A stretch of DNA of 64,000 bases from Halopiger aswanensis (GTDB taxonomy: Archaea > Halobacteriota > Halobacteria > Halobacteriales > Natrialbaceae), in contig NZ_RAPO01000001.1 in assembly GCF_003610195.1 (NCBI RefSeq), positions 372,001 to 436,000 on the forward strand, read 5' to 3'. Shown here piece by piece: positions 16,637 through 36,636 of the stretch; position 1 is the first letter of the stretch, and each line of letters begins with the position of its first letter. The notes beneath the pieces were generated by a model, which made no database searches, was not told the DNA's origin, and was given only the letters and a program-made list of their open reading frames with translations. The position numbers and the translations under genes are program-made.

Positions 16637-18250
16637 TCACTCGAGATACCCCAGGTCGGCGAGTCGATCCTCGACCGCCTCGTCGGCGGTCGCGACCGCG
16701 TCCTGATTGTCGGCCCGGGAGTACGACTGCGTCCCCGTCGAGTCGACGCAGGGGAGCGGCTGGCCGTCCATCCGGTCGTCGATCGGCACACCCAGCGACG
16801 CCAGAACGGTCGGCGCCACGTCGAACAGGTGCGGCTCGCCGAGGTCGGCCGTCGAGTCGATCGCCGCGCCCCGGGCCGCGAACGTCCCTTCGAGCTTGTG
16901 GTTCCACGGCTCCGACGGCGGGCCGAACGGCTCGTCCCGCAGCGTCGCCGAGAGGAAGTGCTCGAAGTCGGCCGGGATCGCCACGATATCGACCGCGTGT
17001 TCGCTCTCGGGCCCGTGGAAGAACTCCTCGCGCGGGCGCACTGTCTCGAAGACCGGCTCGCCGTCGGGCGTCGTCACCGAGCGGAGCGCGTCGATGACGC
17101 GGGTCCGAACCGTCTCGTACTCCTCCTGGGGCACGACGCCGTTCGGTTCCCGCCCCTCGAGGTTGAGCCGAACGCCGAGTTCGATCCGCGAGCGGACGTA
17201 GGCCGTCGATTCCGGGAAGTCGACCTGCGTCGCGCCGGCGTTGACGAGGCCGGTCGGGGCGTAGGCCGCGACGAGGTCGTAGACGCCGAGGCGCTCGAGG
17301 AGGGCGCCGATGCGCTGGCTCGTGAGGCCGGCCTTCGCGGCGGTCGCCATGGCACGCTCGGCGGGGCCGGGGTCGTACTCGGTGCTGTCTTCGCCTTGCT
17401 TGAGGTTGTCGTCGCGAACCGTCGCCCACGTGGGCATCCCCTCGCCGCCGTTTTCGGTCTCGACGAGTCCCTCCTCGTGGAGGTAGTCGTTGATCCGAAA
17501 CTCGTAGCCGTCGTAGGGTCCCATCCCGTGGTCGCTCGCGACGATCACGGTGTCGGGGTCGTGGGTCTCGAGAATCTCTGCGAGTTGGCGGTCGACCTGC
17601 CGGTAGATCGTTCGGATCGCCGCGTCGTTCTCGGGCTCCTCGTGGAAGATCGAGTCAGTGCCCTGGAACTCGACGAAGCCGAACTCGGGGTCGAATCGGT
17701 CGGCGAGATAGCGGAACGCCTCGCCGCGCATGCGGGCGCAGTCGGCGTAGGCGGCTCCGAGGTCGGCCGCATCTTCGTCCGGGTAGACGCGGTACTCGCC
17801 GAGTTCGTCGCGGACGTCCGCGAGGAGTCCAGAGGGGTGGCAGTCGGGGTTTTCCGGCGCGGTGTAGCCGGGGATCAACGCGCCGTCGAACTCCCGCGGT
17901 GGGTGCGTGACGGGAACGTTGACGACGACGCTCGTGATGCCGTGTTCGGAGAGTAGTTCCCACAGCGCCCGCTCGCGGACGTCGCTGGCGTTGACCACGT
18001 CCCAGTCGTAGCCGTCGAAGGAGAGAAAGCCGAAGACGCCGTGCTTGCCGGGGTTCTTGCCGGTGTACAGCGACGGCCACGCCGAGGCGGTCCACGGCGG
18101 GATCTGGGACTCGAGCGGACTGCTCGCGCCCTGCTCGTAGATCGACTCGAGCGCGGGAAGGTCGCCGTCCTCGAACATCGGTGCCAACACGCGGTCGCAG
18201 GCGGCGTCGATGCCGACGAGCAGCGTTCGGAGGGAAGATCCGTCGTCCAT
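16637..18250 (-). CDS. Alkaline phosphatase superfamily / type I phosphodiesterase-like enzyme
   Basis: 537 residues of the nucleotide pyrophosphatase/phosphodiesterase branch. LLVGIDAACDRVLAPMF carries the first metal Asp. PPWTASAWPSLYTGKNPGKH has the Thr/Ser nucleophile region. FVEFQGTDSIFH and TVIVASDHGMGPYDGYEF give further metal ligands, with HLFDVAPTVLASLG near the C-terminus. No signal peptide, so it is probably cytoplasmic. Homologues are common in haloarchaeal polysaccharide and glycosylation regions, where they may process nucleotide sugars or phosphorylated glycans. That role is inference from the neighbouring genes. Confidence 0.85.
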   Translation of the reverse strand: MDDGSSLRTLLVGIDAACDRVLAPMFEDGDLPALESIYEQGASSPLESQIPPWTASAWPSLYTGKNPGKHGVFGFLSFDGYDWDVVNASDVRERALWELLSEHGITSVVVNVPVTHPPREFDGALIPGYTAPENPDCHPSGLLADVRDELGEYRVYPDEDAADLGAAYADCARMRGEAFRYLADRFDPEFGFVEFQGTDSIFHEEPENDAAIRTIYRQVDRQLAEILETHDPDTVIVASDHGMGPYDGYEFRINDYLHEEGLVETENGGEGMPTWATVRDDNLKQGEDSTEYDPGPAERAMATAAKAGLTSQRIGALLERLGVYDLVAAYAPTGLVNAGATQVDFPESTAYVRSRIELGVRLNLEGREPNGVVPQEEYETVRTRVIDALRSVTTPDGEPVFETVRPREEFFHGPESEHAVDIVAIPADFEHFLSATLRDEPFGPPSEPWNHKLEGTFAARGAAIDSTADLGEPHLFDVAPTVLASLGVPIDDRMDGQPLPCVDSTGTQSYSRADNQDAVATADEAVEDRLADLGYLE

Positions 18251-18276: not shown

Positions 18277-18284
18277 TTGGTTAT
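18277..18284 (-). promoter_or_regulatory. ATAACCAA promoter-like element of the phosphatase gene
   Basis: On the minus strand ATAACCAA lies 27 bases before the ATG at 18250, the position of a TATA box for a leaderless transcript. The sequence CGTCCATAAC around it recurs before the gene at 36445 (36472-36479), and both resemble the ATAACAA box of the surface-polysaccharide genes. Confidence 0.4.
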
Positions 18285-18370
18285 GGACGCGGTTACGCGG
18301 CGAATCGGTCGCCTTCGGTCGTCGATCGCCGACGGGTGGTGTCGGACCGAGCCAATCGACAGCCGGCGGC

Positions 18371-18410: not shown

Positions 18411-18429
18411 CAGCTGAAGTGCAGGAGAT

Positions 18430-19971: not shown

Positions 19972-19983
19972 GTGCTCGACCAC

Positions 19984-20359
19984 CCGGCGACGGCCGATGG
20001 AACGTCGTCGCTGTCAGTCGCTCGGCGTACCATATCCGATCGATCGCTTCACGAGCACTTTGTAAGCAACCTGTTTCCGTCATCGCAGGCTGTCGGTCAC
20101 GATCGCTGTCGTGTCCCTCGGTGTGGCTACCGAACCCGGTCGGCAGTATAGTCTCCCGCTACGGCCGGTCGTTCGCCGCCTGTGGCCGCGGTTCGGCCTC
20201 GAGTCGTTCGCATCCCGCGTCCGCGACACTGACGAGCGGCCGGCGGGATTCCGAATCTGCGAGTCGACCGCCGATCGGACCAGTAGTCTCGATGAACAGT
20301 CGGTTACACGACGAGTAACAATGTCCGAACCGGTCGCAGATCGGATAACTGACGGATAA
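19984..20359. other. Divergent intergenic region of the FemAB and DUF1616 genes
   Basis: About 376 bases holding promoters for both flanking genes. Its right part contains one copy of the shared cluster motif (20294-20321). A 12-codon open frame (ATG 20321 to TAA 20359) ends exactly before the ATG of the DUF1616 gene. I see no convincing gene in the rest. Confidence 0.5.
20294..20321 (+). promoter_or_regulatory. Surface-polysaccharide cluster promoter motif, copy 1
   Basis: GAACAGTCGG (20294-20303), an 11-base spacer, then GTAACAA (20315-20321), 38 bases before the ATG at 20360. It matches the copies at 21751, 23731, 28868 and 31640 except for one extra spacer base. Confidence 0.55.
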
Positions 20360-21403
20360 ATGAAAGACCTCCTGATTCGAACGGTTCGGCCGGTCGTCGC
20401 CATCGGCCAGGGAACCAGACGTCTCGTCACACGAACGCCGACCGATCTGGTCGCCGTCGCCGGCTTCGTCGCCGTCGCCACCCTCCTCCTGACGGTCGTC
20501 GACGTCGCCTCGCCGGTCGTGCGAGCCGCGGTCGGCTTTCCGTTGCTGTTTCTCGCCCCCGGCTACGCGATCGTCGCCGCGCTGTTCCCCCGCGCCGCCC
20601 CGCTCGAGGCGTCGACGGGCTTCGGTATCGGCCAGATGCGAGCGGTAACGGAGGTCGAACGCGCCGCGCTCGCGTTCGGCCTGAGCTTCGCGTCGCTGCC
20701 GCTGATCGGCCTGACCGTCGCAGCCCTCTCGCTCGAGTTTACGGGCCCCGTCGTCGTCGGGGCCGTGAGCGGGTTCGTGCTACTCACCGTCGCGGTTGCT
20801 ACGGTCCGTCGGTTCCGCGTCCCCGCTCAGGATCGCTACCGACTCCGGCTGCTCCGCAAGCTCGGGGCCGCCCGCGCTGCGATCGTCGATCGCGGATCGA
20901 TCGCGTACACGGCGGTCAACGTCGTCCTGATCGTCAGCATGGTGATCGCGCTGACGAGCGTCGGCTACGCGCTCGTCTCACCCCAGCAGGGCGAGCAGTA
21001 CACCTCCCTCCGGATACTCGACGAGAACGACTCGGGCGAACTCGTCGCGGGCAACTACACGACCGAGATCGAGTCCGGCGAGTCCGTCCCGCTCACGATC
21101 GCCGTGGAGAACCAGGAGGGGACGGGGACCGAGTACACGGCCGTCATCCAAGAGCAGTGGCTCGAGGACGGCACGGTACTCGAGCGGACGGACCACCAGC
21201 GCGTCGAGTACAGCGTCGGCGACGGCGAGACCGCAACCGCCGAGCGATCGGTGACGCCGTCCGCCGAGAGCGGCGAGGTCCGCATCGCGGTGTTGCTCTA
21301 CGAGGGCGACGTGCCGGACACGCCGACCGTCGACAACGCGTACCGCTCGGGCTACCTCTGGGTCGAGATCAGCGACGATCTCGAGTCGGAATCCGACGAG
21401 TAG
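20360..21403 (+). CDS. DUF1616 domain membrane protein
   Basis: 347 residues. After a short cytoplasmic head come four helices up to about residue 160 (FPLLFLAPGYAIVAALFPR is the DUF1616 hallmark), then one more helix (TAVNVVLIVSMVIALTSVGY, about residue 195). The last ~140 residues form an extracytoplasmic beta-rich domain (YTSLRILDENDSGELVAGNY, SVPLTIAVENQEGTGTEYTA). DUF1616 proteins recur in archaeal glycosylation and exopolysaccharide loci; no activity is established. The shared cluster motif lies 38 bases upstream. Confidence 0.85.
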   Translation: MKDLLIRTVRPVVAIGQGTRRLVTRTPTDLVAVAGFVAVATLLLTVVDVASPVVRAAVGFPLLFLAPGYAIVAALFPRAAPLEASTGFGIGQMRAVTEVERAALAFGLSFASLPLIGLTVAALSLEFTGPVVVGAVSGFVLLTVAVATVRRFRVPAQDRYRLRLLRKLGAARAAIVDRGSIAYTAVNVVLIVSMVIALTSVGYALVSPQQGEQYTSLRILDENDSGELVAGNYTTEIESGESVPLTIAVENQEGTGTEYTAVIQEQWLEDGTVLERTDHQRVEYSVGDGETATAERSVTPSAESGEVRIAVLLYEGDVPDTPTVDNAYRSGYLWVEISDDLESESDE

Positions 21404-21810
21404 CGCGCTTCCGTTTCTCGAGTACGCGGTAGAACCGAGATGATCCCGCGGCGGGATCGACGATCCTCGCTCGACTTCTCGCAGCGGGCGCTGGCTCCGG
21501 ACGCGTTCTCGTGATCGATGCCGTCACGTGTCGCCGGTTCTATCGGCCGTGGATCGTCTGTCGGCGGCCGTGTCGGCTCCGTCTCGTCCGCCGTTCGTTC
21601 AGCCTCGAGCCTGACCCCCGTTCCGACCGCACGGCCGCGAGCTGTGATCGCAGGTGTCGGCTATCGACCCACTGTTTCGATACCGGCTGTCAGTTGAGAG
21701 CAATGCAACGAACGGCGACCGGTCCGGTTTCGACGACGGTACCGTACTGCTTACAGTCGGCAACGAGCGAATAACAAGGCCTGCGATCGGCGAACGACGC
21801 GATAGTTCGA
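21404..21810. other. Intergenic region upstream of the large membrane protein gene
   Basis: 407 bases without a supportable gene. The only structure I can point to is the promoter motif at 21751-21777. The remainder is GC-rich with no strong repeat. The length is unusual for a tandem gene pair and may hold additional regulatory sites. Confidence 0.45.
21751..21777 (+). promoter_or_regulatory. Surface-polysaccharide cluster promoter motif, copy 2
   Basis: TTACAGTCGG (21751-21760), ten bases, then ATAACAA (21771-21777), 33 bases before the ATG at 21811. The decamer and ATAACAA are identical to the copy at 31640, with the same spacing. Confidence 0.65.
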
Positions 21811-23634
21811 ATGTCAACGCAGTCATCCGTCGGCGATTCGCTTCGAAAGGTAGCGCTCACACTCGGCTTCCTCGCGGTCGCCGCCAGCGCGCTCGTCGCG
21901 CGTTCGAATCCGGCGACCGGCTACGAACTCTCGTTCTACACGATGACCCCCACGGAGGTCTGGGCCGGCCTACTGGTTGCGCTAGCTGCATCGCTCGCCG
22001 TCGCGTTCGGCCCGTCCGGCGGCGACCGAACGGATCGGGGACTCGCGGTCGTCCTCGGCGGCCTCGTGATGACCGTGTTCGTCGGCCTCCCGATCGTTCG
22101 CGGCTACCGCTTTCTCGGCCACCACGACGCGCTCACGCACCTCGGCTGGGCGCGTGCCCTCTCCGAGGGAACGATCGTCCCGTTCGACCTCTACTACCCC
22201 GGCATCCACACGGTGACGGTCTTCATCCACTCGGCGCTCGGCATCCCCCTCTCGCGGTCGATGCTACTGATGGTCTTGCTCGCCGTGCTGGTGTTTTGCA
22301 CGTTCGTCCCGCTGTGTGTCGGGACGATCGCTCCCGACGATCGCGGCCGCGCCGCGGCGATCGGCGCCTTCGCCGGCTTCCTCCTGCTGCCGATCACGAC
22401 GATCTCGATGTTCCTCGAGGCCCACGCGATGTCCCAGGCCGTGCTGTTCTCGGCGCTGCTCGTCTATCTGCTCGTCAAGTACGTCCGGCCGGGTCGGGAG
22501 AGCGTCTCTCGGCCCGCGTCCGCGATCGGCGTCGCCCTCGCGTTCGTCTCGATCGCGACCGTCGTCTACCACCCCCAGCTCGTGGCCCACCTGATCGCCG
22601 TCTTCCTCGGGATCTGCGCGCTCCAGTTCCTCGCGCGTCGCGTCGCGGCCGGCGGACGGATGGCCAACCAGACCACGCTGTACGGCCACTCGCTGTTTCT
22701 GATCGGCCTCTTCCTGGTGTGGACCGCGAACCACGACTTCTTCAGCGGGATGTTCGAGCACTTCTTCAGCGCGGCGATCGAGTTCCTGCTCGAGGGTCGC
22801 AGCGGCGCGGGCGACACCGTCGCAGTGCAGGGCGCGTCGCTCTCGTCGATCGGCGGCAGTCTCGTCGAGGTGTTCTTCAAACTGTTCACCGCGCAACTGG
22901 TGTTCGTGATCCTCGTCGGCGCGCTCGCGCTAGCTGTGGTCGTCCGCCGCAACTCGAGTTGGGTCTCGTCGGTGCGGGCCGAGACGATGTACTTCCTCAC
23001 CGCGTTGGTCGCTCTCGTCCCGCTGTTCGGCATCTACTTCCTCGCGCCGGATTCGACGATGCACTTCCGGGTCTTCGGGCTGATGATGCTGTTCGTGACG
23101 CTACTCGGGTCGATCGCGATCCACGGGCTTACGGCCAGGTTTTCGGGCGATCGGTCCCGGTTCGTTCCCGGTCACCCGGTCATCGCCGTCGGCTTCGCCC
23201 TGTTGCTGGTCCTGTCGCTCGCGGCCGTGATTCCGTCGCCGTACACGTACAAGGCCTCCCCGCACGTCAGCGACACGCAGATGAGCGGGTACGAGGCCGC
23301 ATTCGAGAATCGGGACGAGGACATCGGGTTCCTCGGACTCCGAGACGGGCCGAACCGCTTCGACGACGCGATCAACGGGAACGAGGAGCGAATGCACCGC
23401 CATCAGGATCTCGACGAGTCGTCGTTCGGCGACCCGCTCGCGACGCGGTACGACGAGGACAGGTATCTCGCGCTCACCCGCGTCGATTACGAACGCGAGG
23501 TGAACGCGTACAACGAACTCCGGTACACCGAGGAGGAACTCGACTCGGTCGCGACGCAACCCCGCGTGAACCGGGTGCAGTCCAACGGCGAGTTCGACCT
23601 CTACTACGTCGACACCGAATCGAGCCTCGAATAA
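21811..23634 (+). CDS. Large multi-spanning membrane protein of the polysaccharide cluster
   Basis: 607 residues, roughly 12 to 13 transmembrane helices over the first ~480 residues, then a ~125-residue hydrophilic C-terminal domain. HHDALTHLGWARALSEG in the first large loop, with an adjacent DLYYPGIHTVTVF, resembles the acidic/His loop of GT-C glycosyltransferases or polymerases. An LxPxxD-like stretch appears at YFLAPDSTMHFRVFGLM. The role could be polymerase or lipid-linked glycosyltransferase; I cannot choose. The C-terminal part (YEREVNAYNELRYTEEELDS) is typical of haloarchaeal exported domains. Confidence 0.7.
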   Translation: MSTQSSVGDSLRKVALTLGFLAVAASALVARSNPATGYELSFYTMTPTEVWAGLLVALAASLAVAFGPSGGDRTDRGLAVVLGGLVMTVFVGLPIVRGYRFLGHHDALTHLGWARALSEGTIVPFDLYYPGIHTVTVFIHSALGIPLSRSMLLMVLLAVLVFCTFVPLCVGTIAPDDRGRAAAIGAFAGFLLLPITTISMFLEAHAMSQAVLFSALLVYLLVKYVRPGRESVSRPASAIGVALAFVSIATVVYHPQLVAHLIAVFLGICALQFLARRVAAGGRMANQTTLYGHSLFLIGLFLVWTANHDFFSGMFEHFFSAAIEFLLEGRSGAGDTVAVQGASLSSIGGSLVEVFFKLFTAQLVFVILVGALALAVVVRRNSSWVSSVRAETMYFLTALVALVPLFGIYFLAPDSTMHFRVFGLMMLFVTLLGSIAIHGLTARFSGDRSRFVPGHPVIAVGFALLLVLSLAAVIPSPYTYKASPHVSDTQMSGYEAAFENRDEDIGFLGLRDGPNRFDDAINGNEERMHRHQDLDESSFGDPLATRYDEDRYLALTRVDYEREVNAYNELRYTEEELDSVATQPRVNRVQSNGEFDLYYVDTESSLE

Positions 23635-23730
23635 GCTCGTGGAGGCGCCGTGCCGCGCTCGCTGAGTCGGTGTCCGTACTCCCGGGCTGAACACGAATTC
23701 AATCGGCCGCAAAATCCCACACGGCCGGCG

Positions 23731-23757
23731 TGAAATCGGGTAGTAGATCAATAACAA
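23731..23757 (+). promoter_or_regulatory. Surface-polysaccharide cluster promoter motif, copy 3
   Basis: TGAAATCGGG (23731-23740), ten bases, ATAACAA (23751-23757). Same architecture as the copies at 21751, 28868 and 31640. It lies 31 bases before the ATG of the small frame at 23789, the usual spacing, but 206 before the flippase start. Confidence 0.55.
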
Positions 23758-23788
23758 GGGCTCGATCCGGCTAGCGTTGTACTGGTTA

Positions 23789-23959
23789 ATGCCGGATCTC
23801 GAACGCCAGTCCCGGACGTCCTCGTATCGCATCGGCTGTTCGGATGCCCGCTCGTGGTGGCTCGGGGGTGGACCGACAGTGCCAGATGCCCGTCGAGCCC
23901 TCCCTCGAATCGAACTGCACAGTGCCCTCGGGTCGAGACAGACCGCCGACGAGTCGTAA
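23789..23959 (+). CDS. Possible 56-residue upstream open reading frame
   Basis: Starts MPDLERQSRTSSYRIG and stops with TAA four bases before the flippase ATG at 23964. Its position relative to the upstream motif equals that of the other motif-driven genes, which is the main argument that it is translated. Composition is Arg/Ser-rich and not typical of a haloarchaeal protein, so it may be only a leader region. No similarity recognised. Confidence 0.25.
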   Translation: MPDLERQSRTSSYRIGCSDARSWWLGGGPTVPDARRALPRIELHSALGSRQTADES

Positions 23960-23963
23960 CCCC

Positions 23964-25499
23964 ATGTCCGCAACCGACAAGCTCGTCAGCGGGTTCAAGG
24001 CGAATCTGGCGGCCAAGGTCGTCGAAGTCGGCGTCAACGGCCTGCTCGTGCTCCTCTTGACGAACGTCTTCCTGACGACAGGGGAGTACGGCCTGCTGTA
24101 CCTGGCGATTTCGATCTGCAGCGTGGCGATCTTCTTCAGCCGGATGGGGTTCGCCAAGTCCGCCGCCCGGTACGTCACCGAGTACCGCGAGACGGATCCG
24201 TCGAAGATCCCGTTCATCGTCCGGCGCGCGCTGACGTTCAACGTGATCGCGATCGCGGTCGTCGCGGGCACGGTCCTCGCGCTCCGCGGGCCGATCGCCG
24301 CGCAGTTCGGCGAACCCGACTTGGTCTGGCTGCTCTCGATCGGATTCCTCTTTATCGTCGCCCGGACGCTCCACTCGTTCGGGTACTTCCTCTGTCAGGG
24401 ATTCAACCGCGTTTCCTGGAGCGCGTTGCTGTTGATCGTCGCGAATCTCGGGATCCTCGCGTCCGTCCTATCGCTGCTCGCGCTCGGCTTCGGCGTCGCC
24501 GGAGCGCTGTTCGGGTACGTCGTCGGCTACGGGCTGAGCGCGACGGTGGGGCTGACCGTCCTCTACCGGTGGGTGTCGAGCGCCGATTGGAATGCGACCG
24601 GTGACGCGGACGGGACCGAGTCGGCCGATGGGGCGGGGACCTCGTCGGCTGGGAGCAGCGCTACCGACGAAACCGAGAACCTCACTCGCCGCATCTTCGA
24701 GTACAGCCTCCCGCTTACCGTCACCGGCGCCGCGTCGATTCTGTACAAGCGCGTCGACATCGTGCTCGTCGGGGCGATTCTCTCCCCCGTCGCGGTCGGC
24801 TACTACACCCTGGCCAAGCAACTGACCGAGTTCGTGACGGCGCCCGCGAGTTCGCTCGGGTTCGCGCTCGCACCCGCCTACGGCGAGTCGAAGTCCAGCG
24901 ACAACCTCGAGCGGGCCGCCGAGATTTACCGGACGACCTTCGAGTACAACCTGCTCTTTTACATCCCCGCCGCCGCCGGGATCGCACTGGTCGCGGATCC
25001 GGCCGTCCGATACGTCTTCGGCGAGGGGTACCTCGGTGCGATTCCGATCGTGCAGGTGCTCGCGGCGTTCGTCGTCCTCCAGTCGATCAACAAGATCACC
25101 GACGACGCGCTCGATTTCCTCGGGCGCGCCCGGCATAGGGCGCTCTCGAAGGGCGGAACGGCGGCGCTCAACTTCGTGCTCAACCTCGTCTTCCTCCCGA
25201 CGATCGGGGTCGTCGGCGCGGCGCTGTCGACGGTCATCAGCTACGCGATCATGGTCGGGATCAACATCTACCTCATCCACTCGGAACTCTCGCTCCCGCT
25301 CCGGTCGCTGTTCCGAACGGCGCTGACCGTGTGCAGTATCGCCCTCGGCATGTCGCTGATCGTCGTGCTCGGCTTGCCCTACGTCTCGAGCGTCGTCTCA
25401 CTGGCCGCGATCGTCCTCCTCGGCGTCGTCAGTTGGCTCGCGCTGGCGGTCACCAGCGGGCTGCTGGATCTGCGCCGGGCCGTCGCTCAGCTGAGCTAA
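23964..25499 (+). CDS. Polysaccharide flippase (Wzx/MATE-like oligosaccharide exporter)
   Basis: 511 residues, about 14 transmembrane helices. N-terminal LVSGFKANLAAKVVEVGVNG and GEYGLLYLAISICSVAIFFS, then RMGFAKSAARYVTEY, are typical of haloarchaeal flippases. The middle carries a hydrophilic acidic loop (about residues 212-240) before RIFEYSLPLTVTGAASILYK and VDIVLVGAILSPVAVGYYTL. It would flip lipid-linked glycan units to the outer face of the membrane. ATG 23964 is preferred over an in-frame ATG 40 codons upstream, because that extension lacks homology-like character. Confidence 0.9.
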   Translation: MSATDKLVSGFKANLAAKVVEVGVNGLLVLLLTNVFLTTGEYGLLYLAISICSVAIFFSRMGFAKSAARYVTEYRETDPSKIPFIVRRALTFNVIAIAVVAGTVLALRGPIAAQFGEPDLVWLLSIGFLFIVARTLHSFGYFLCQGFNRVSWSALLLIVANLGILASVLSLLALGFGVAGALFGYVVGYGLSATVGLTVLYRWVSSADWNATGDADGTESADGAGTSSAGSSATDETENLTRRIFEYSLPLTVTGAASILYKRVDIVLVGAILSPVAVGYYTLAKQLTEFVTAPASSLGFALAPAYGESKSSDNLERAAEIYRTTFEYNLLFYIPAAAGIALVADPAVRYVFGEGYLGAIPIVQVLAAFVVLQSINKITDDALDFLGRARHRALSKGGTAALNFVLNLVFLPTIGVVGAALSTVISYAIMVGINIYLIHSELSLPLRSLFRTALTVCSIALGMSLIVVLGLPYVSSVVSLAAIVLLGVVSWLALAVTSGLLDLRRAVAQLS

Positions 25500-25800
25500 C
25501 GGCACGACATCGTCGCCGTTCCGTCTCGTTTTCCGTCCGAACTGCGTCGACCCGCGCCGTCCGCCGGGACCGGCGGTACGTGCTCGAGTGGAGTTCGAGC
25601 CGAACGCTCGTCGCACCTGAACCGCTCGACGGCCCGGTACGCTACCGCGTGTCGGTGCACCCGAACTGCTCCGCCACCGCATTCACGTTGACGAGTTTAT
25701 TTGTTTCTCCTGACGATCAGCCGGCCGTGACTATGCTATTATAAAGACTAATCAGTTGAAGAGATTCTTACTTCGACGGACTGTTCCTGAACCGCAGTGT
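25500..25800. other. Intergenic region upstream of the beta-helix gene
   Basis: 301 bases, GC-rich at first and AT-rich from about 25685. It contains a TATA box (25737-25746). A TTG at 25756 could extend the next protein by 15 residues but is unlikely. No gene or repeat seen otherwise. Confidence 0.5.
25737..25746 (+). promoter_or_regulatory. TATA box of the beta-helix gene
   Basis: TATTATAAAG within an AT-rich patch predicts transcription start near 25768 and a leader of about 30 bases before the ATG at 25801. The shared ATAACAA motif of neighbouring genes is absent here, so this gene may be controlled separately. Confidence 0.5.
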
Positions 25801-27774
25801 ATGACTACCAACGAGGACGCTGGCTCGGATCCCGACGAACGAACGCTGGTCGGTCGACGCTCCTATATTAAAGCGGCCGCGAGCGCGGTCACGCTCGGCG
25901 CCGCCGGCGCCGGCTCCGCTGCGGCTGCCGGTGAGGACTACGACGTCATCGAGGTCCCCGCCGGACGGACGCACACGATCACCCTCGGTAGCGGCGACAC
26001 GCTCGAGAACACGCTGATCGACATTTCGGCGCGGAACGCGAAATTCCAGATCTCCGCCCGCGGGTCGGGCTGGGAAGTCCGCAACCTCGGCATCCGCGGC
26101 AACTGGGACGAAACGCAGAAAGCCGAACCGTTCATCGTCAGCGGCGACGGCGTCATCGACAACTACTACTTCGCCGACGGGGCGACCGGGAACACCTACC
26201 CCAACGGCCCCACGGGCATCTACGTGGCGAACGCCCACAGCGGCACGATCCGGATCAACAACGTCAACATTCAGGACATGCCCGACAACGCGATCTACGG
26301 CAGTTCGCCGGGCGATCTCCCCTCCCACCCCAGCGGCGGTGGCGGCGGCGGCGACGTGATCATCACGAACAGCTACGCGGCCGACTGCGTCGCCTCCTCG
26401 TTCCGCGTCGGGACCGACGGGAGCCGCGTCGAGAACTGCGTCTCCGTCGGCTCCGATTGCGGCTTCTGGGCGTTCTACAATTCACCCAAAGTCGTCGACT
26501 GCGACTTCTCCGACTCGAACCTCGGCGACATCCGCGTCGGCGACGGCCACTGGCAAGCCAACGCCAGACCGCGACTCGAGAACGTCCGCTACGAGACGGA
26601 CGTAATTCACTCGGGTTCGGTCGTCGGCTCGTCGGCAGGCTCGCCACAGCGGACGTCCCCCGAGGAGGTCGAGGGCGTGCCGCTCTCGGCGGAGGAGGCT
26701 GCCTCGGGCGGCGGCAGCGGCGGCGTCAGTCCGTCGCCGCCGAGCAACGGCGACGAACCCGACGAGGACGGCGAGGACGACGAGGAACTCGAGGGCCACC
26801 TCCTCGCGTTCGTTACGAAACCCGAGGCGCGGAACGCGGAGTACGAGTTCACGGCCGAGGGGGCTGTTGAACTCGCCGAGGCCGATTACGAGAGTCCCTC
26901 CGGCCGCTCCATCGGCGCCAACGGTAACGATTCCGTCGAGGAATCGGACGGAACGGCCCGCGTTAGCGGGCTCACCGGCGGCGGTTACGGTGACGCCTAC
27001 CGCGTCGCCGGCCCGGTGACGTCGATCGACATCGACCAGCCCGACGTGATGTGGGTCGAACTCGACGGCGAGAAGATGTCCGTCGAAGAGGTCATCGAAG
27101 CCACGTCCGGCGACGACAGCGACGAGGACGACGAGAACGACGAGAACGAAGCGAGCGACCACCTGCTCGCGTTCGTGACCGACGCCGACGCCAGATACGC
27201 CGAGTACGAGTTTACGGCCGAAGGAGCCGTCGAACTCGCGGACGCCGACTACGAGAGTCCGTCCGGCCGCTCTATCGGTGGCAACGGCAACGACGCGATC
27301 GAAGAGTCGGACGGCAAGTACCGCGTCAGCGGACTCACTGGCGGCGGCTACGGCGACGCCTTCCGCGTCTCGGGTCCCGTTACGTCGATCGATATCGACC
27401 AGCCCGACGTGATGTGGGTCGAACTCGACGGCGAGGAGATGTCGGTTGAGGAGGTTATCGAGGCCACGTCCGGTGACGACGACGAAGACGACAGCGGGAA
27501 TGAAGATGACGACGCCTCCGACGGCCCGTCGAACGCGCTCGTCATCGACGCGACCGAAACTGGTGCGTCGGCAGAGTACCGGTTCGAGGTCTCCGGATCG
27601 GTCGAGAAAGCAACCCACCGGGACGCGACGATCGACGACGGCGATAGCGTCGACGGTACCGCAGTCAAGGGCTCCGTCGACAGCGCGAAGGACGCCTACT
27701 GGTTCAGCGGCGACATCACGGACTTCTGGCTGAACGGGGACGCGCTCGTCGACGTCGAGTACAACGCTCGATAA
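25801..27774 (+). CDS. TAT-exported beta-helix protein with duplicated C-terminal modules
   Basis: 657 residues. Residues 1-45 form a twin-arginine signal (R19-R20 in VGRRSYIKAAASAVTLG, then an Ala-rich segment). Residues ~46-290 look like a right-handed parallel beta-helix with short Asn/Gly-rich turns (IRINNVNIQDMPDNAIYG, SRVENCVSVGSDCGFW). Acidic linkers then separate two nearly identical 107-residue modules (residues 333-439 and 454-560) and a shorter diverged third (about 580-657). It is probably secreted and binds or cleaves polysaccharide, as many beta-helix proteins do; no catalytic residues can be assigned. There is no PGF-CTERM anchor. Confidence 0.85.
   Translation: MTTNEDAGSDPDERTLVGRRSYIKAAASAVTLGAAGAGSAAAAGEDYDVIEVPAGRTHTITLGSGDTLENTLIDISARNAKFQISARGSGWEVRNLGIRGNWDETQKAEPFIVSGDGVIDNYYFADGATGNTYPNGPTGIYVANAHSGTIRINNVNIQDMPDNAIYGSSPGDLPSHPSGGGGGGDVIITNSYAADCVASSFRVGTDGSRVENCVSVGSDCGFWAFYNSPKVVDCDFSDSNLGDIRVGDGHWQANARPRLENVRYETDVIHSGSVVGSSAGSPQRTSPEEVEGVPLSAEEAASGGGSGGVSPSPPSNGDEPDEDGEDDEELEGHLLAFVTKPEARNAEYEFTAEGAVELAEADYESPSGRSIGANGNDSVEESDGTARVSGLTGGGYGDAYRVAGPVTSIDIDQPDVMWVELDGEKMSVEEVIEATSGDDSDEDDENDENEASDHLLAFVTDADARYAEYEFTAEGAVELADADYESPSGRSIGGNGNDAIEESDGKYRVSGLTGGGYGDAFRVSGPVTSIDIDQPDVMWVELDGEEMSVEEVIEATSGDDDEDDSGNEDDDASDGPSNALVIDATETGASAEYRFEVSGSVEKATHRDATIDDGDSVDGTAVKGSVDSAKDAYWFSGDITDFWLNGDALVDVEYNAR
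26797..27117 (+). repeat. Intragenic tandem module, copy 1
   Basis: 321 bases encoding HLLAFVTKPEARNAEYEF through EVIEATSGDD. Matches copy 2 (27160-27480) at nearly every residue, including SIDIDQPDVMWVELDGE. The two are separated by a 42-base acidic linker and point to recent duplication within the gene. Confidence 0.9.
27160..27480 (+). repeat. Intragenic tandem module, copy 2
   Basis: 321 bases encoding HLLAFVTDADARYAEYEF through EVIEATSGDD, the same length as copy 1. Most differences are conservative (Glu/Asp, Ala/Gly). A third, shorter and diverged unit (ALVIDATETGASAEYRFEV) follows after another acidic linker. Confidence 0.9.
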
Positions 27775-27819
27775 CGTTTCGTTCACCCCCGCGCTTCTCG
27801 AGCGCCTCGCGGTTCGAAC

Positions 27820-28839
27820 TCACTTCAACGAGCCGCTCACGGTGCTGTAGACCGACTTCGCCAGCGTCATCTCGAGACCCTCGGATTCGACCGCGTAGTA
27901 GGGCCGGAGTTCGCCGTTGAACTTCCCTTTGTACTCACAGAGGCGCTCGGTGTTCGCGCCGACCAGATCGTACCCCGTCACCGACTCGAGGTCGGGATCG
28001 GTGACGATGTCCTCGAGGATGACCCGATGCAGGAGGTTGTTGACGCTGACGTGCTCGTAGGAGGCGACGACGCCGCCCTGCCAGTAGTAGGCCAGATCGT
28101 TCGAGAACAGCGTGATGATGCCGCTCTTGTACTCGCCGTCCGGCGTGCGGGCGACGTAGACCCGCCAGCGGTCGTCGTCCAGCGACGAGAGCAGATCGCG
28201 GAGGAAGGGCTCGGTCATCGGCGCGGTGTCGTCGTACTCCGCGTACTGGTCGACGACGTCCTCGTAGATCCGCATCGCCGACTCGATCCCTTCCTGCTCG
28301 ATCGTCAGGTCGAGATCGTCGTAGCGGCGCATCTCGTTGCGGAGGCTCTTGCTGAATCCCGACATCGCGTCCTCGACGTCCGAACAGTCCTCGAGGTCGA
28401 CGACGTAGGTGAACTTCGGCTCCGTAGTGAAGCCGTTCCAGTTGTAGGGGCGGGGATCGTCGTAGCCGACCGGACAGGTCATCCGGAACAGCGTCGAGCG
28501 CCTGTCGGTCTCGAGGTCGTCGGCGACGGCTTCGGCGAGTTCGCTGTTGATGCGCTCCCACTTGCGGCGCTTCGGGCTGTTCGGGTTGATGATGGGGCCC
28601 AGGCGGGGAACGCCCAGCGAGACGGGCGGCGAGAAGACGGTGCGGCCGACGGACTTCTCGTCGACGAAGACCGGGAGGAGGCCGACCGCTTGCTGTCCCT
28701 TGAACGCGCCGTAGAGGCGCATCTGGGCGTCGGTGTGGGCGTCGAGCACGGTCAGCGCGTCGGGGTCGTGGAACACCTCGAACCCGGACCGGGGCAGCGC
28801 CTCGCCCCACTCGGCGAGCGTCAGTCGTTCGATATCCAT
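27820..28839 (-). CDS. FemAB/GNAT-like transferase, copy 2
   Basis: 339 residues, same architecture as the copy at 18961: LYGAFKGQQAVGLLPVFVD, FSPPVSLGVPRLGPIINP, FTYVVDLEDCSDVEDAM, and the C-terminal YDLVGANTERLCEYKGKFN. The two share the FKGQ-x-VGL-PVF, FSPP-x-x-L-VP-LGP and YDLVGA-T-R motifs but are otherwise diverged, so they are old paralogues likely acting on different substrates or steps. The shared promoter motif lies 29 bases before its ATG on the minus strand. Confidence 0.82.
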   Translation of the reverse strand: MDIERLTLAEWGEALPRSGFEVFHDPDALTVLDAHTDAQMRLYGAFKGQQAVGLLPVFVDEKSVGRTVFSPPVSLGVPRLGPIINPNSPKRRKWERINSELAEAVADDLETDRRSTLFRMTCPVGYDDPRPYNWNGFTTEPKFTYVVDLEDCSDVEDAMSGFSKSLRNEMRRYDDLDLTIEQEGIESAMRIYEDVVDQYAEYDDTAPMTEPFLRDLLSSLDDDRWRVYVARTPDGEYKSGIITLFSNDLAYYWQGGVVASYEHVSVNNLLHRVILEDIVTDPDLESVTGYDLVGANTERLCEYKGKFNGELRPYYAVESEGLEMTLAKSVYSTVSGSLK

Positions 28840-28867
28840 GTGTGTCTCCCTGGGACGACTATTCGTT

Positions 28868-28894
28868 TTGTTATCTCGCCGCTACCGAACGGTA
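28868..28894 (-). promoter_or_regulatory. Surface-polysaccharide cluster promoter motif, copy 4
   Basis: On the minus strand: TACCGTTCGG (28894-28885), ten bases, ATAACAA (28874-28868), then 28 bases to the ATG at 28839. Spacing is identical to the copies at 21751, 23731 and 31640 although it is on the opposite strand. Confidence 0.6.
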
Positions 28895-29023
28895 ACGGCG
28901 GACGAACGGTCGGCTGCGAGTGTACTCGAGTCGAGCCTCCGAGCGTGCTCGAGCGCCGCGAAATGACCGCGAAAAGAGCGGCGTCGAATCGGCGAGAAGG
29001 ACGGCGCTCCCGCAGCGCCAGCG

Positions 29024-30253
29024 TCACCCCTCGAGCGTCGAGAGAATCCGCCGCCAGTCGTCGCCGGCCTCGTCCATCCCGAACTCGTCCCGGACCGCCG
29101 GCGCGGCGTCCGCGAGGTCCGCCCGGTAGTCCGGATCGTCGAGACATCGCCCCATCGCGCGGGCGAACGCCGCCGGCGTTCGATCTGGGACGACGATCCC
29201 GTTCTCCCCGTCGGTGACGACGTCCGGCACCGAACCCACTCGCGGAACGATCGGTGCGAGCCCCGACGCCATCGCCTCGAGCAGCGCCAGCGGCAGGGCG
29301 TCGCGCCGCGAGGTGAGCACGAACGTATTCGAGCGCCGGTAGTACGACAGCGGGTCGTCGACCCAGCCCGGCAGAGCGATGCGATCCTCGAGGCCGTGTG
29401 CGGCGATTTCGTCGATGACGTCCGTTCGATCGGAACCGGTGCCGACCATCGCCGCCTGGAACTCTCGGCCGTCCGCCTCGAGCTGTGCGAGCGCCCTGAC
29501 GAACAGGAGCGGGTCCTTCTCCGCGCTGAAGCGGCCGAGCCAGACGAAGTCGTACTCGGCGTCGATATCCGCCGGAATCGGGTGGTAGGTGTCGACGTCG
29601 ATCGCGTTCGTCAGGATCTCGATGCGCTCCTCGGGGACGCCCATTCGGACGAGTTTGCGGGCGTGGGCGGAGCCGGGAACCGAAATCGCGTCGAACTGCC
29701 TGAACGCCCAGCGCGGCCCGGCGCCGTACCACTGCCGGGCGTGGTGATCGAGGTCGATGCCGATGATGCCCAGGTGCGCCGGATAGCCGTAGACCGCCTT
29801 CAGCGCGAGCGCGTAGAGCCCGTACGGCAGCAGCGAGATCGACGCGACGGCGTCGTACTCGTTGCGGTAGCCCTCGTAGAGGGCCACGAAAAACAACAGG
29901 AGGACCCGCAGGAGGCGCGGCCCGATCTCCGGCACCTGCACGTACTCCGCATCGTCGATGGCACGTTCGGGCTCGAGACAGACGAGCGTCGTCTTCCCGG
30001 CGACGTCCGCGAGCGGACCGTAGTGGCGTTCGTTCTTGTGCGACAGGCCGGTGATCACGAGCACGCGCGCGTCGTCCTGTTCGTCTTCGTCGTCCTCGTC
30101 CGCGAGCGGGCGTCGCCAGCGCGCTCTGGAGTCGATCGGCGACGACGTCTCGTCGCGACCAGTAGCCGCGTCGCCAGCCCCGTCCGCGTCAGTCGATCCG
30201 GCGCCGTCGCTCGAGGGCGTGCTCTCCGTCCGTTCGGCGGTCGTTTCGCTCAT
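29024..30253 (-). CDS. GT4 family glycosyltransferase
   Basis: 409 residues with an acidic, Ser/Thr-rich N-terminal extension of about 65 residues. The GT-B fold follows: N-terminal domain ARVLVITGLSHKNERHYGPL, LPYGLYALALKAVYGYPAHL; C-terminal donor domain AEYDFVWLGRFSAEKDPLLF, then LTSRRDALPLALLEAMASGL with the E-x7-E-like motif of GT4 retaining enzymes. It probably transfers a sugar from a nucleotide donor during assembly of the surface glycan. ATG 30253 overlaps the stop of the gene at 30250 by four bases (ATGA), so the two are co-translated. Confidence 0.88.
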   Translation of the reverse strand: MSETTAERTESTPSSDGAGSTDADGAGDAATGRDETSSPIDSRARWRRPLADEDDEDEQDDARVLVITGLSHKNERHYGPLADVAGKTTLVCLEPERAIDDAEYVQVPEIGPRLLRVLLLFFVALYEGYRNEYDAVASISLLPYGLYALALKAVYGYPAHLGIIGIDLDHHARQWYGAGPRWAFRQFDAISVPGSAHARKLVRMGVPEERIEILTNAIDVDTYHPIPADIDAEYDFVWLGRFSAEKDPLLFVRALAQLEADGREFQAAMVGTGSDRTDVIDEIAAHGLEDRIALPGWVDDPLSYYRRSNTFVLTSRRDALPLALLEAMASGLAPIVPRVGSVPDVVTDGENGIVVPDRTPAAFARAMGRCLDDPDYRADLADAAPAVRDEFGMDEAGDDWRRILSTLEG

Positions 30254-31545
30254 GCTTCGAGGGGGTCGGCTCGGTCCTCGGCCCTGGAGTCGGCGTCGGC
30301 CTCGAGACACGCCAGCAGGAACTCCGAGGTCGCGTAGGACATCCAGCCCTGACACCACCGCATCAGCGTCACGCGCTTGGTATGGTGACGGTACTTCCGG
30401 TAGTAGAACCGGCCTTCTTCGCCCTCGACCTGCATGTTCGCGAGCACCCAGCGGAGGATCCGCTCGGCGAACTCGAGGTCGCCCTCGCGAGTGAACACCA
30501 GAATACCCTGCGTGCTGGCGTGGATGTCACGCGGGTAGGCGTGCTCCTCGTCGAAGTTCGGCGCGCCGTCGAGTTCGAACAGTTCCTCGCGGTAGAACTC
30601 GACGGCGTCCTCGAGCGTGTCGGCGTACCGCTCTTCGTCGACGACCTCGCGGTAGCGCTGGAAGGACTCGATGACGAACCCGTTGTGGTGGTTGTCCATC
30701 GAGAGGTGCGACGCGTCCGCCGGGAGCCGGTAGGGCCAGCCGCCCCGGTCCGTCTGGTTGGCCGCGATGTGATCGAAGATCTTCGTCGCGCGCTCGCGGA
30801 GTTCGTCGTCGCCGAAGTACTCGTAGAGATCGACGAGCATCTGCGCGCCGAGCGCGGCCGCGTTGATCGTGTAGGAGTCGTCGGGGTGGTTGAGGTGGTA
30901 GTCGATCTTCGCGCCCTCCTCGACCTCGCGGTAGTTCAGGTCCTCGACCATGAAGTCGACCGCCGTGCGTGCGATCTCGGCGTACTCCTCTTTCCCCTCG
31001 TGCTCGGCGACCCGCAGGAGCGCCTTGACCGCGCACGAGGTCGAAACGATGTCCGGATCGCTGGGTACGCCTTTCGTGTGGAGATGCTGGATCTCGTGGC
31101 GATGCCCGCCGCAGAAGCCGCTGTAGCCGGAGAGGCTCTCCTCGAGGAGCCACTCGGCCAGCCGCTCGGCCTCGCCGAGCGGATCGAAGCCGGGATCGGT
31201 GCGCTGGCCCCGCGCCTGCAGGAGGTCGTAGTAGTTCAGATTCGCGATCGAAAACAGCGCCGCCCCCATGTAGTTGCGCCGCTGTTCGACGCGAAAGAGC
31301 GGCCTGACGTCGATCGGCGCACGCTTGACGGTCTCTTGGACCGCCAGATTGAGAAATCGGTTCTCGACGGGCAGGGCCTGCAGCAGTTGACTGCTCATCC
31401 CGTCGCCGTAATCCGGCCCGATGTAGTCCCGCCGCCGCGCGTACGCGAGCATCGAATCGAGCGCGGAGACGTACCGATCGACGTCTCGAGCGCGCGCTCC
31501 CGTCTCTGCCCGATCGTCCGGCGCGTGAAGTCCTTGCGACTGCAT
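30250..31545 (-). CDS. Alpha/alpha-toroid-like protein coupled to the glycosyltransferase
   Basis: 431 residues. Regular alternation of helices with GG/W/H-rich turns (YSGFCGGHRHEIQHLHTKG, NQTDRGGWPYRLPADASHL, YPRDIHASTQGILVFTREG) suggests an (alpha/alpha)6 barrel as in glycoside hydrolases, polysaccharide lyases or prenyltransferase-like proteins. No membrane helix or signal. Homologues in databases tend to carry misleading transporter names, as far as I recall. With the overlapping GT4 gene it probably forms a two-gene unit in glycan assembly; a hydrolase or epimerase role cannot be distinguished. Confidence 0.65.
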   Translation of the reverse strand: MQSQGLHAPDDRAETGARARDVDRYVSALDSMLAYARRRDYIGPDYGDGMSSQLLQALPVENRFLNLAVQETVKRAPIDVRPLFRVEQRRNYMGAALFSIANLNYYDLLQARGQRTDPGFDPLGEAERLAEWLLEESLSGYSGFCGGHRHEIQHLHTKGVPSDPDIVSTSCAVKALLRVAEHEGKEEYAEIARTAVDFMVEDLNYREVEEGAKIDYHLNHPDDSYTINAAALGAQMLVDLYEYFGDDELRERATKIFDHIAANQTDRGGWPYRLPADASHLSMDNHHNGFVIESFQRYREVVDEERYADTLEDAVEFYREELFELDGAPNFDEEHAYPRDIHASTQGILVFTREGDLEFAERILRWVLANMQVEGEEGRFYYRKYRHHTKRVTLMRWCQGWMSYATSEFLLACLEADADSRAEDRADPLEA

Positions 31546-31639
31546 TGATCGGATCCTCGCCGAGTCGTCCTATTATTATACGGCTGTTACCGCGCCGGGT
31601 CGCGCCCAAGGGTCCGACTGTCGAACGTCCCGCCGTCCG

Positions 31640-31666
31640 TTACAGTCGGTACGAGCTAGATAACAA
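31640..31666 (+). promoter_or_regulatory. Surface-polysaccharide cluster promoter motif, copy 5
   Basis: TTACAGTCGG (31640-31649), ten bases, ATAACAA (31660-31666), 43 bases before the ATG at 31710. Decamer and box are identical to the copy at 21751, nearly 10 kb away. Confidence 0.65.
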
Positions 31667-31709
31667 ACCCCGTCGACGGGGCACCGTTCACGATACGGTG
31701 CCTTCCAGC

Positions 31710-32828
31710 ATGAAGTACCTGTTTTTCACGAACACCCCGGCACATGTCCATCTGTACAAACACGCCGTCCGGCGGTTGCGCGACCGCGGTCACGAGGTGC
31801 TCGTGCTCGCTCGCGACTACACCTGTACGGTCGATCTCCTCGAGTGGTACGAGCTGCCCTACGCGGTCTACGGGGCCTGCGATACCTCGAAAGGGTCGCT
31901 GCTGAGCCGCCTACCGGCCCACTACGCGCGCGCGATCACGCAGGCGCGGCGCTTCGATCCCGATCTCGTCTTCGGCATGGGCGGCTACGCGGCCCACACC
32001 GGCGCCGTTCTGCGGACGCCGACGGTGCTGCTCATCGACTCGGAGCCCGCCTCGTTCGATCATACGATCTCGACGCCCTTCGCCCGGGCCGTCCTCACGC
32101 CCGACACGTTCCGGAAGAATCTGGGTCGGAACCACTACGTTTTCCCCGGCTTCAAGGAGTGCGCGTACCTCCACCCCGAGATCTACGAGCCGAACCCGTC
32201 GATCCGCGACCGGCTCGAGCTCGAGGCCGACGAACCCTACGTCATCCTCCGGCTCAACGCCTTCGGCTCGCAACACGACGTCGGCAAGCAGGGACTCACG
32301 GCCGACGATCGCCGCCGGATCGTCGACCGCCTCAGCGAGGACGCGACGGTGCTCGTCTCCGACGAGAGCGGCGAGGCCGACCTCGAGGGGATGCCGGCGC
32401 GCCCGTTCGATCTCCACCCCGCGCTGATGCACGACGCCCTCGCCGAAGCCGAATTGCTGGTCGCCGATACCCAGACGATGGTCACCGAGGCCGCGCTGCT
32501 GGGCACGCCGGCGATCCGCTCGAACTCCTTCGTCGGCGACGACGACATGGGCAACTTCGTCGCGCTCGAGGAACAGGGCCTGATCCACAACGTGGCTTCG
32601 GCCGACGCGATCATTGACCGCGCGGTCCCGCTGCTCGAGGCCGACGACGTCGACGAGACGTGGCAGCGCCGGCGCAACGCCTTCCTCGCGGACACGGTGA
32701 ACCTCACCGAACTGATCGTCGACGTGGCGACCGCCGAAGGTCGCGTCGACGGGCTCGAGGCCCTCGCACAGTTCGGCCAGCGACAGCCGGCCGAACTCGA
32801 GCCCTCGGTCGGCGTCGGCGGCGACTAA
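31710..32828 (+). CDS. DUF354 protein (GT-B/epimerase-like)
   Basis: 372 residues from ATG 31710 (MKYLFFTNTPAHVHLYKHAV). DUF354 proteins resemble UDP-GlcNAc 2-epimerase and GT-B transferases. Seen here: an N-terminal Rossmann strand (KYLFFTNTPAHVHLYK), FGMGGYAAHTGAVLRTPTVL, LIDSEPASFDHTISTPFAR, and the C-terminal AEAELLVADTQTMVTEAALL plus SNSFVGDDDMGNFVALEEQ, where nucleotide sugar would bind. Likely acts on a nucleotide-activated sugar for the surface polysaccharide. The longer in-frame start at 31545 is rejected because the promoter motif lies inside it. Confidence 0.85.
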   Translation: MKYLFFTNTPAHVHLYKHAVRRLRDRGHEVLVLARDYTCTVDLLEWYELPYAVYGACDTSKGSLLSRLPAHYARAITQARRFDPDLVFGMGGYAAHTGAVLRTPTVLLIDSEPASFDHTISTPFARAVLTPDTFRKNLGRNHYVFPGFKECAYLHPEIYEPNPSIRDRLELEADEPYVILRLNAFGSQHDVGKQGLTADDRRRIVDRLSEDATVLVSDESGEADLEGMPARPFDLHPALMHDALAEAELLVADTQTMVTEAALLGTPAIRSNSFVGDDDMGNFVALEEQGLIHNVASADAIIDRAVPLLEADDVDETWQRRRNAFLADTVNLTELIVDVATAEGRVDGLEALAQFGQRQPAELEPSVGVGGD

Positions 32829-35815: not shown

Positions 35816-36445
35816 CTAGTCCCGATTTCCAGGGCCGGCCTTCGAGCGGTCGTTCCGTCCGCTGCGTCCGAGGAGGAGCCGTTTCACACCCGCCAGACAC
35901 TCCCGGAGGACGGGCGCACCGTCGATCAGCCAGACGAGTACCGCGCCGAGTGCGAGCGCGATCTGGACCGTTCGATACGTCGAGAGATCACCGGCCGCCA
36001 ACTCGTTGCGATACCGAGCGAAGAACTGAAAGAACTGGTCGAAAAGCCCCTGGGCTCGACTCCGCGTCGGCACCGTCGCGACCGGCCAGAGGACGATCTC
36101 GGGGTAGACGACCCCGCCGCGGAGGTAGCCGTCGAGGATGTCCGAGGGAAGGTGCAGGAGGTAGCCGATCGCGAACGCGATGCCGGCTCGCGTCCGGCCG
36201 ACTGACCGAGCGAGGAGACCGGCGGCGACTCCGAGCGGCACCGCGAAGAAAATCGAATGCCCGAGCGCGTATCCCGTCTCGAACACCTCGAACTCCCAGG
36301 CTAGCGGTTTGTCGATGACGTCGGGCAGTACCGACGCGATCACGGCCGCGAGCGCTTCCGGGCCGTCAGGCGACTCCCGGTAGTAGAGGCGACTCACGAG
36401 CGAGTAGACGAGGTAGCCGACGATCGCGTGCTCCCATGGCCACAT
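35816..36445 (-). CDS. YdjM-like membrane-bound metal-dependent hydrolase family protein
   Basis: 209 residues. MWPWEHAIVGYLVYSLVSRL at the N-terminus and GYLLHLPSDILDGYL carry the His/Asp pairs of this family (WEHA, GHSIFF, LLHLPSD). Four or so transmembrane helices. The E. coli relative YdjM is an inner-membrane protein of the LexA regulon; the reaction is unknown. On the minus strand ATAACTAA (36479-36472) lies 27 bases before the ATG, in the TATA position for a leaderless transcript. Confidence 0.82.
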   Translation of the reverse strand: MWPWEHAIVGYLVYSLVSRLYYRESPDGPEALAAVIASVLPDVIDKPLAWEFEVFETGYALGHSIFFAVPLGVAAGLLARSVGRTRAGIAFAIGYLLHLPSDILDGYLRGGVVYPEIVLWPVATVPTRSRAQGLFDQFFQFFARYRNELAAGDLSTYRTVQIALALGAVLVWLIDGAPVLRECLAGVKRLLLGRSGRNDRSKAGPGNRD

Positions 36446-36636
36446 CAGGGTACGACAGCCGCCCGACCGGGTTAGTTATGGACGTGATATCCGCCGCCCG
36501 GTCGCGATCCGCGACTGTAACGAGGTTCGATCGATACTGTCGCCCACCGTGATCGCCCGCCGGTAACGACCGCATACCGCCTCGAGTTCACCGGCCGCTC
36601 TTGCTGGAAAATCCACGCCGGCTCCGAGACGGCGGT

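Follow-up and report, generated by a model that had tools for sequence, protein, structure and literature searches.

What governs the expression of a surface-polysaccharide gene cluster is the question raised by a 64,000-nucleotide stretch of the Halopiger aswanensis genome (contig NZ_RAPO01000001.1, positions 372,001 to 436,000; C1:372001-436000 of a 4.87-Mb genome, hereafter the window), in which several genes of the cluster are preceded by similar sequences that include the heptamer ATAACAA. An earlier note on this DNA had described these repeats as a decamer ending in TCGG that is followed, after ten bases, by ATAACAA, and had proposed that they are read by a dedicated activator or a special TFB. 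Our analysis confirms the motif and finds it wider than first reported, the conserved element being GGTA-N8-RTAACAA. Genome-wide clustering, conservation across genera and in most families of the class, and glycan targets elsewhere together give strong support to a function-specific, conserved promoter class for surface-glycan genes. The reading that we rank first, with a probability of about one half, is that this dedicated class is activator-dependent and that proteins of the DUF7344 family are the most likely regulators.

Definition of the promoter element

The pattern TCGG-N9-12-ATAACAA has four matches in the window against 0.01 expected, and none of 100 shuffles reaches four; genome-wide there are seven exact matches, five of them within C1:354-404 kb, and the glycan region rich in this pattern reaches left beyond the window. 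The genome-wide search that had been suggested as a check thus found the pattern clustered, and not frequent or randomly placed, which had been named as the refuting outcome. The less restrictive pattern ATAACAA-N20-48-ATG gave 49 rows across the genome, of which 15 fall in 81 kb (P ~1e-16; one site accounts for two rows), and the 34 rows beyond these 81 kb represent no excess over the 39 obtained genome-wide for the reversed control.

A profile was built from 93 non-redundant sites in the Halopiger and related motif islands, chosen solely for the presence of TAACAA before an open frame. Counting the R of RTAACAA as position 0, the profile favours G at -12 (63%), G at -11 (59%), T at -10 (60%) and A at -9 (92%), conserves R and TAACAA followed by A/T, G and C, and shows weak T at -20. 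The A at -9, which played no part in site selection, is present in 86 of the 93 sites and, counted by eye, at 14 of the 15 ATAACAA boxes in the 323-404 kb region of the Halopiger genome. Whilst the same decamer, TTACAGTCGG, does stand at 21751 and 31640, as had been observed, and at no other position of the window, it is not the shared unit it was taken for, the profile conserving GGTA and RTAACAA instead: the decamer ends at -11 and has solely its GG in common with the motif, its remainder (TTACRGTC) being kept mainly among orthologues of the gene for a 607-residue membrane protein. Four phased TA steps (at -31, -20, -10 and +1, i.e. spaced by 11, 10 and 11 bases) were striking in a redundant set of sites; in the non-redundant set the outer two drop to weak preferences, and we keep the phasing as a hint only.

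The sites originally listed before the genes at 20360, 21811, 28839 (minus strand) and 31710, and before the small frame upstream of 23964, all exist, although the box at 20315 reads GTAACAA. The spacer, given as exactly ten bases, has that length at 21771, 28874 and 31660, whereas the TCGG-to-box gap is 11 at 23751 as well as at 20315, where 11 had been recognised. Distances from box to start codon measure 38, 33, 31, 28 and 43 bases, in agreement with the range of 28-43 given, and the weaker relatives mentioned before 18250 (ATAACCA) and 36445 (ATAACTA) are both present, each 27 bases before the start codon. A position weight matrix (PWM) trained without the Halopiger genome finds, at a score cut-off of 12, eight sites in the window against 0.7 in simulated windows, and every one of them precedes a gene of the glycan cluster (18250 to 36445; Table 1). 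One of these, the site at 31579 on the minus strand (GGTAACAGCCGTATAATAA), is newly found, having been overlooked before, and is divergent from the site at 31660.

Extent of the regulon

To the left of the window the regulon extends to about C1:323 kb, with ten further strong sites in C1:323-364 kb that stand before genes for a phosphodiesterase, a polysaccharide deacetylase-like protein, a Gfo/Idh oxidoreductase, a glycosyltransferase, a DUF1616 protein, a member of the 607-residue family, a CoA-transferase-like protein and a PadR regulator. A weak variant, GTGTAGGTGAGTGATAACTA (score 14.8), lies at C1:370510 on the minus strand, 26 bases before the gene for a small membrane protein, which is a possible further member.

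Conservation among relatives is extensive. Orthologues of the gene at 21811 from about 20 genera of the family carry TAACAA in all 29 promoters whose upstream sequence is intact, its distance to the start codon being nearly constant. GTAACAA is likewise kept before DUF1616 orthologues at most related loci, the 28-base spacing of the FemAB/GNAT-like gene (28839, minus strand) recurs in its orthologues, and the site at 31648..31666 is identical in a congener (G024). Two of the variant sites have closer matches to the consensus elsewhere: the orthologous loci L115 and L116 carry ATAACAA where the site at 18278..18296 has ATAACCA, and relatives in family f3 (L223, L226) have GTA-N8-ATAACAA before the counterpart of the YdjM-like gene.

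Across 194 genomes of the class, GTA-N8-ATAACAA has 805 matches compared with 255 for the reversed control, and the excess is seen in eight of the nine tabulated families. Natrialbaceae, the family of Halopiger, average 7.7 per genome against 1.9, and family f9, with at least nine sites inside about 40 kb, has 11.5 against 2.5. Outside Natrialbaceae the targets, named from their sequences and partly by Pfam, are often glycan genes, and include those for FemAB-like proteins, a flippase, UDP-GlcNAc 2-epimerase-like proteins, glycosyltransferases, aminotransferases, oxidoreductases, sulfatase-like proteins, an ABC exporter and MoxR. In one genome (locus L010, G017:C1:2766938-2766964, minus strand) a ACAGTCGG-N11-ATAACAA match lies shortly upstream of an apparent tRNA gene and not of a protein gene.

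Position relative to the core promoter

Most haloarchaeal transcripts are leaderless, and the promoters that drive them comprise a TTWT box, a CGAAA B-recognition element (BRE) and a WW element at -10 (PMC4983044), a consensus with which the earlier view of ATAACAA as a non-standard box is consistent. Members of the class carry RTAACAA and not a TTWT-like TATA box, and no other AT-rich box is evident in these promoters. Among the 93 sites the distribution of distances from RTAACAA to the start codon is cut off sharply at 25 bases on its lower side, because of which the heptamer probably occupies the TATA position: a box placed there, with transcription starting about 24 bases downstream, would explain such an edge. 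Positions +21 and +22 favour G and A/T, respectively, and A/T at +22 fits the -10 element of haloarchaeal promoters. The BRE positions, -1 to -7, each hold less than 0.15 bit and are not conserved, nor is there a CGAAA-like BRE directly upstream of the box; GGTA sits just beyond these positions.

DUF7344 proteins as candidate regulators

Proteins encoded in 23 motif islands were grouped by similarity, blind to function. The most widely shared family is DUF7344 (PF24035), with 38 proteins in 18 of the 23 islands, and it still ranks first (14 of 19) when four windows drawn to include such genes are left out; the G187 window was also drawn with DUF7344 genes in view, and without it the count is 13 of 18. 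In genus g33 a large motif island occurs in only four of 21 genomes and always holds three DUF7344 genes; of the 18 islands or single sites in this genus, six have a DUF7344 gene within 5 kb, where 0.6 would be expected (P ~1e-5).

DUF7344 proteins fall into two types, 'LKN' and 'LSN', both present in most islands. Genes of the LSN type have the motif in their own promoters in families f1 (as a variant), f3, f4, f6 and f9, whilst LKN genes, barring two probably spurious matches, have none upstream. The motif-bearing copies of f6 are LKN-like in sequence, yet group apart from the LKN clade. DUF7344 genes outside islands mostly lack the motif, and on the DUF7344 tree the motif label changes 10 times, compared with 22 in shuffles. 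LKN/LSN pairs with the motif on the LSN gene only were seen in the motif islands of most genomes examined; the two proteins of such a pair could form a heterodimer or act as input and feedback partners.

In full-length members the C-terminal part contains one or two segments of strong hydrophobicity. In the structure predicted for a Halomarina DUF7344 protein, two long helices come after a winged helix that resembles ArsR (best Z 11.3, 2.7 A over 93 residues), the closest folds being of the ArsR family (HlyU and CzrA; Z 11). A PDB sequence search with DUF7344 gave nothing significant, and no paper with DUF7344 was found in the open-access literature. In many Natrialbaceae the family has at least 27 genes per genome, and a comparison of DUF7344 genes per genome with motif counts was set aside as uninformative, the family being present everywhere.

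Several observations weigh against this reading. DUF7344 occurs in 192 of the 194 genomes, which makes its mere occurrence poorly informative, and the family may be a general mark of glycan islands. In the Halopiger genome itself the motif is missing before the LKN gene at C1:334498 and before an LSN-like gene at C1:365197, and C1:360588 has a variant only (score 12.3). At motif-bearing LSN genes the box often lies 80-100 bases before the called start, not 25-45, and start codons were called mechanically. PadR genes bear the motif more uniformly within Natrialbaceae. The Halomarina model was derived from two sequences, with a mean predicted local distance difference test score (pLDDT) of 69.5, and a Foldseek search with it returned no match below an E-value of 0.01, the best being 0.014.

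Nevertheless, a DUF7344-dependent activation mechanism can be outlined. GGTA-N8-RTAACAA precedes genes in surface-glycan islands; RTAACAA would take the position of the TATA box, and GGTA would lie a helical turn farther upstream, beyond the BRE. The imperfect dyad GGTA-N9-TAAC is probably bound by a dimeric winged-helix regulator, which would recruit TBP and TFB to a box that they bind poorly by themselves. The most likely such regulator is DUF7344, with its predicted ArsR-like winged helix and putative membrane anchoring through the C-terminal helices. Since LKN genes lack the motif and LSN promoters carry it, LKN may be a constant input factor and LSN a feedback partner. What we observe is the motif with its position, clustering and conservation, together with where DUF7344 genes lie and which of their promoters bear it; TBP contact, binding by a dimer, activation over repression and DUF7344 as the binder we infer. 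The fullest version of this scheme, a class-wide glycan regulon run by membrane-anchored DUF7344 pairs (constant LKN, autoregulated LSN), in which a half-site-like RTAACAA replaces the TATA box and the envelope signals directly to the sugar-coat genes, is offered tentatively, as somewhat less probable than not.

Alternative readers of the motif

The main rival to DUF7344 is PadR. An 'SGQ'-type PadR regulator of 91-93 residues could bind the motif directly, control the glycan genes and regulate itself through the same sequence, as PadR regulators commonly do, with the DUF7344 genes being mere targets. Five PadR genes in the Halopiger genome (on contigs C1, C2, C3, C11 and C13) have the motif 28-40 bases before the start, those on other contigs than C1 lying at C2:1221478, C3:72766, C11:1599 and C13:2869; it is found at 29-37 bases in all 26 Natrialbaceae loci L342-L367, and also at L368-L371 (a genus of f4) and at several further paralogues. 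The cluster copy, moreover, is 92-100% identical over 60 residues across most Natrialbaceae, and variants of the motif occur at PadR genes in f3 islands. Against this, PadR is found in only seven of the 23 islands, and the SGQ type is absent from those of G129 and G133. In the genomes with islands in f9, f4 (genus g33) and f3 the PadR proteins are all more distant (78% identity at most), and the copies in f9 islands lack the motif, yet sites are many in these islands. Some SGQ-type copies also lack it (L372-L374 and L380), and overall we consider PadR as the direct reader unlikely. Three of these copies (L372-L374, at C11:29319, C5:136594 and C4:102991 of the Halopiger genome) have gaaaagaa-tcaaata upstream instead, and look like a variant with its own promoter.

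A specialised TFB or TBP paralogue might instead read RTAACAA directly, the heptamer then being a core-promoter code that needs no activator. Such a reading would suit a box at the TATA position and the many TFB genes of haloarchaea, as well as the TFB gene (C1:332785-333744) that, in all 10 Natrialbaceae loci, is the divergent neighbour of the LKN DUF7344 gene, its products being 84-92% identical. The BRE positions, however, are not conserved, whereas GGTA farther upstream is, and no TFB gene was found in the checked islands of f9, f4 (genus g33) and f3. On both these grounds the sequence evidence favours an activator over a special TFB, the two possibilities first raised for this dedicated promoter class. 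Given the conserved TFB neighbour in Natrialbaceae, a TFB may still play a part, but we regard a basal factor as the sole reader as improbable. The cluster-encoded TFB was rejected as a class-wide reader, being found, among the islands checked, solely in Natrialbaceae. Its gene (product of 319 residues) and the LKN DUF7344 gene form a pair at C1:332785-335013 (L021:12785-15013), some 37 kb to the left of the window.

The third possibility, that the motif is a repressor operator laid over the TATA box and holds the glycan genes off, is in keeping with the overlap of the conserved dyad with the TATA position, and relatives of ArsR and PadR are mostly repressors. An operator over an ordinary TATA box, however, would not need an identical, unusual heptamer in every promoter, and with no other AT-rich box evident in these promoters we judge repression improbable. 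Finally, although the strict TCGG pattern occurs twice on contig C4 with no obvious glycan gene behind it, the probability that the repeats are chance or copied DNA without regulatory role is negligible, this being excluded by the shuffles, the reversed controls, cross-genus conservation and the unselected A at -9.

Relation to known systems

In the open-access literature we found no description of this promoter class and no promoter motif for haloarchaeal exopolysaccharide, and among titles none linking ATAACAA to a haloarchaeal promoter. By analogy, the nearest haloarchaeal case would be the bop-type promoters of Halobacterium, whose box is itself unusual. There an activator element, recognised by Bat, lies close to the box and is shared by the targets bop and crtB1 (PMC2253796). 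The present class differs in having surface-glycan targets, an element GGTA at -12 to -9 that is probably not an upstream activating sequence of the bop kind, and links to DUF7344 or PadR; a Pfam scan of part of the island genes gave one BAT/HTH_10 gene, at 40869 in the window, with no visible link.

EarA, which acts at TACATA sites upstream of the fla (archaellum) promoter of Methanococcus, is similarly a winged-helix activator bound just upstream of the weak core promoter of a surface structure, and is thought to recruit TFB (PMC13286277, PMC6396743). It is reported to be absent from haloarchaea (PMC13286277), and its site and target class are different, the box itself being invariant here. 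ArnR and ArnR1 of Sulfolobus acidocaldarius are paired paralogous, membrane-bound factors for surface structures, with an N-terminal helix-turn-helix and two C-terminal membrane helices (PMC6396743). This arrangement recurs in DUF7344 proteins, which frequently come in two types as well, a likeness of layout; at 170-220 residues they have no room for a HAMP or sensor domain, and the site is TCGAC-N5-GTCGA there but GGTA-N8-RTAACAA here. CsmR of Haloferax volcanii, also a winged-helix regulator from haloarchaea, has a semi-palindromic site that adjoins the TATA box (PMC13286277). It belongs, however, to the Lrp/AsnC family, with a TATCA-N4-TGATA site and motility genes as targets. Folds that the DUF7344 model matches include that of RosR from Halobacterium (6qfd and 6ez1; Z about 9.7), and PadR-type genes are in this regulon; the RosR site is unlike GGTA-N8-RTAACAA. 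The promoters described here may work like those of EarA or ArnR, with an activator beside the weak core promoter of a surface structure, as an analogy and not as membership in any of these systems.

Features of the window

Sites and genes are collected in Table 1. The small frame that follows the site at 23751 (23789-23963) is out of frame with the flippase gene, and may encode a leader peptide, or the flippase may start elsewhere. To the right of the glycan cluster lie an HVO_2248-like 'motility-related' gene (38865-39680) and the PAS/BAT/HTH_10 regulator gene (40869-42278).

Table 1. Motif sites, decamers and regulon genes in the window (box: position of the heptamer).
Feature	Coordinates	Strand	Box	Remarks
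GTAA-N8-ATAACCA variant site	18278..18296	-	18284	PWM 14.2; 27 bases before phosphodiesterase gene
GTTA-N8-GTAACAA site	20303..20321	+	20315	PWM 18.3; 38 bases before DUF1616 gene
GCAA-N8-ATAACAA site	21759..21777	+	21771	PWM 20.0; 33 bases before 607-residue membrane protein gene
GGTA-N8-ATAACAA site	23739..23757	+	23751	PWM 21.0; before flippase gene, 31 bases before small frame at 23789
GGTA-N8-ATAACAA site	28868..28886	-	28874	PWM 22.4; 28 bases before FemAB/GNAT-like gene
GGTA-N8-ATAATAA variant site, GGTAACAGCCGTATAATAA	31573..31591	-	31579	PWM 18.8; 27 bases before 431-residue protein gene
GGTA-N8-ATAACAA site	31648..31666	+	31660	PWM 22.8; 43 bases before glycosyltransferase-like gene
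GATA-N8-ATAACTA variant site	36473..36491	-	36479	PWM 17.0; 27 bases before YdjM-like gene
TTACAGTCGG decamer	21751..21760	+		final GG alone aligns with general motif
Second TTACAGTCGG decamer	31640..31649	+		
Type I phosphodiesterase gene, probable regulon member	16637..18250	-		PF01663
DUF1616 membrane protein gene, regulon member	20360..21403	+		PF07760, E 2e-95
607-residue membrane protein gene, regulon member	21811..23634	+		no Pfam family; relatives in 110/121 family genomes
Polysaccharide flippase gene, regulon member	23964..25499	+		PF01943, E 2e-27
FemAB/GNAT-like gene, regulon member	27820..28839	-		PF13480
431-residue protein gene, no assigned family, regulon member	30250..31545	-		family in 7 motif islands
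Glycosyltransferase-like (DUF354) gene, regulon member	31710..32828	+		relatives in 13 motif islands
YdjM-like membrane protein gene, probable regulon member	35816..36445	-		PF04307; family in 12 motif islands

Significance

How haloarchaea control their surface polysaccharides and glycan clusters has been little described, and descriptions of archaeal core-promoter classes that serve one function are few. What began as five sites is extended here to a class-wide regulon, for which the trans-acting factor is a testable inference. With the motif as a sequence test, members of the regulon, starts of transcription and candidate regulators can be predicted in most families of the class, and the motif hints at what the large DUF7344 family does. 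As the glycan coat is what meets viruses, neighbours and surfaces, the switch that controls it would be a useful handle.

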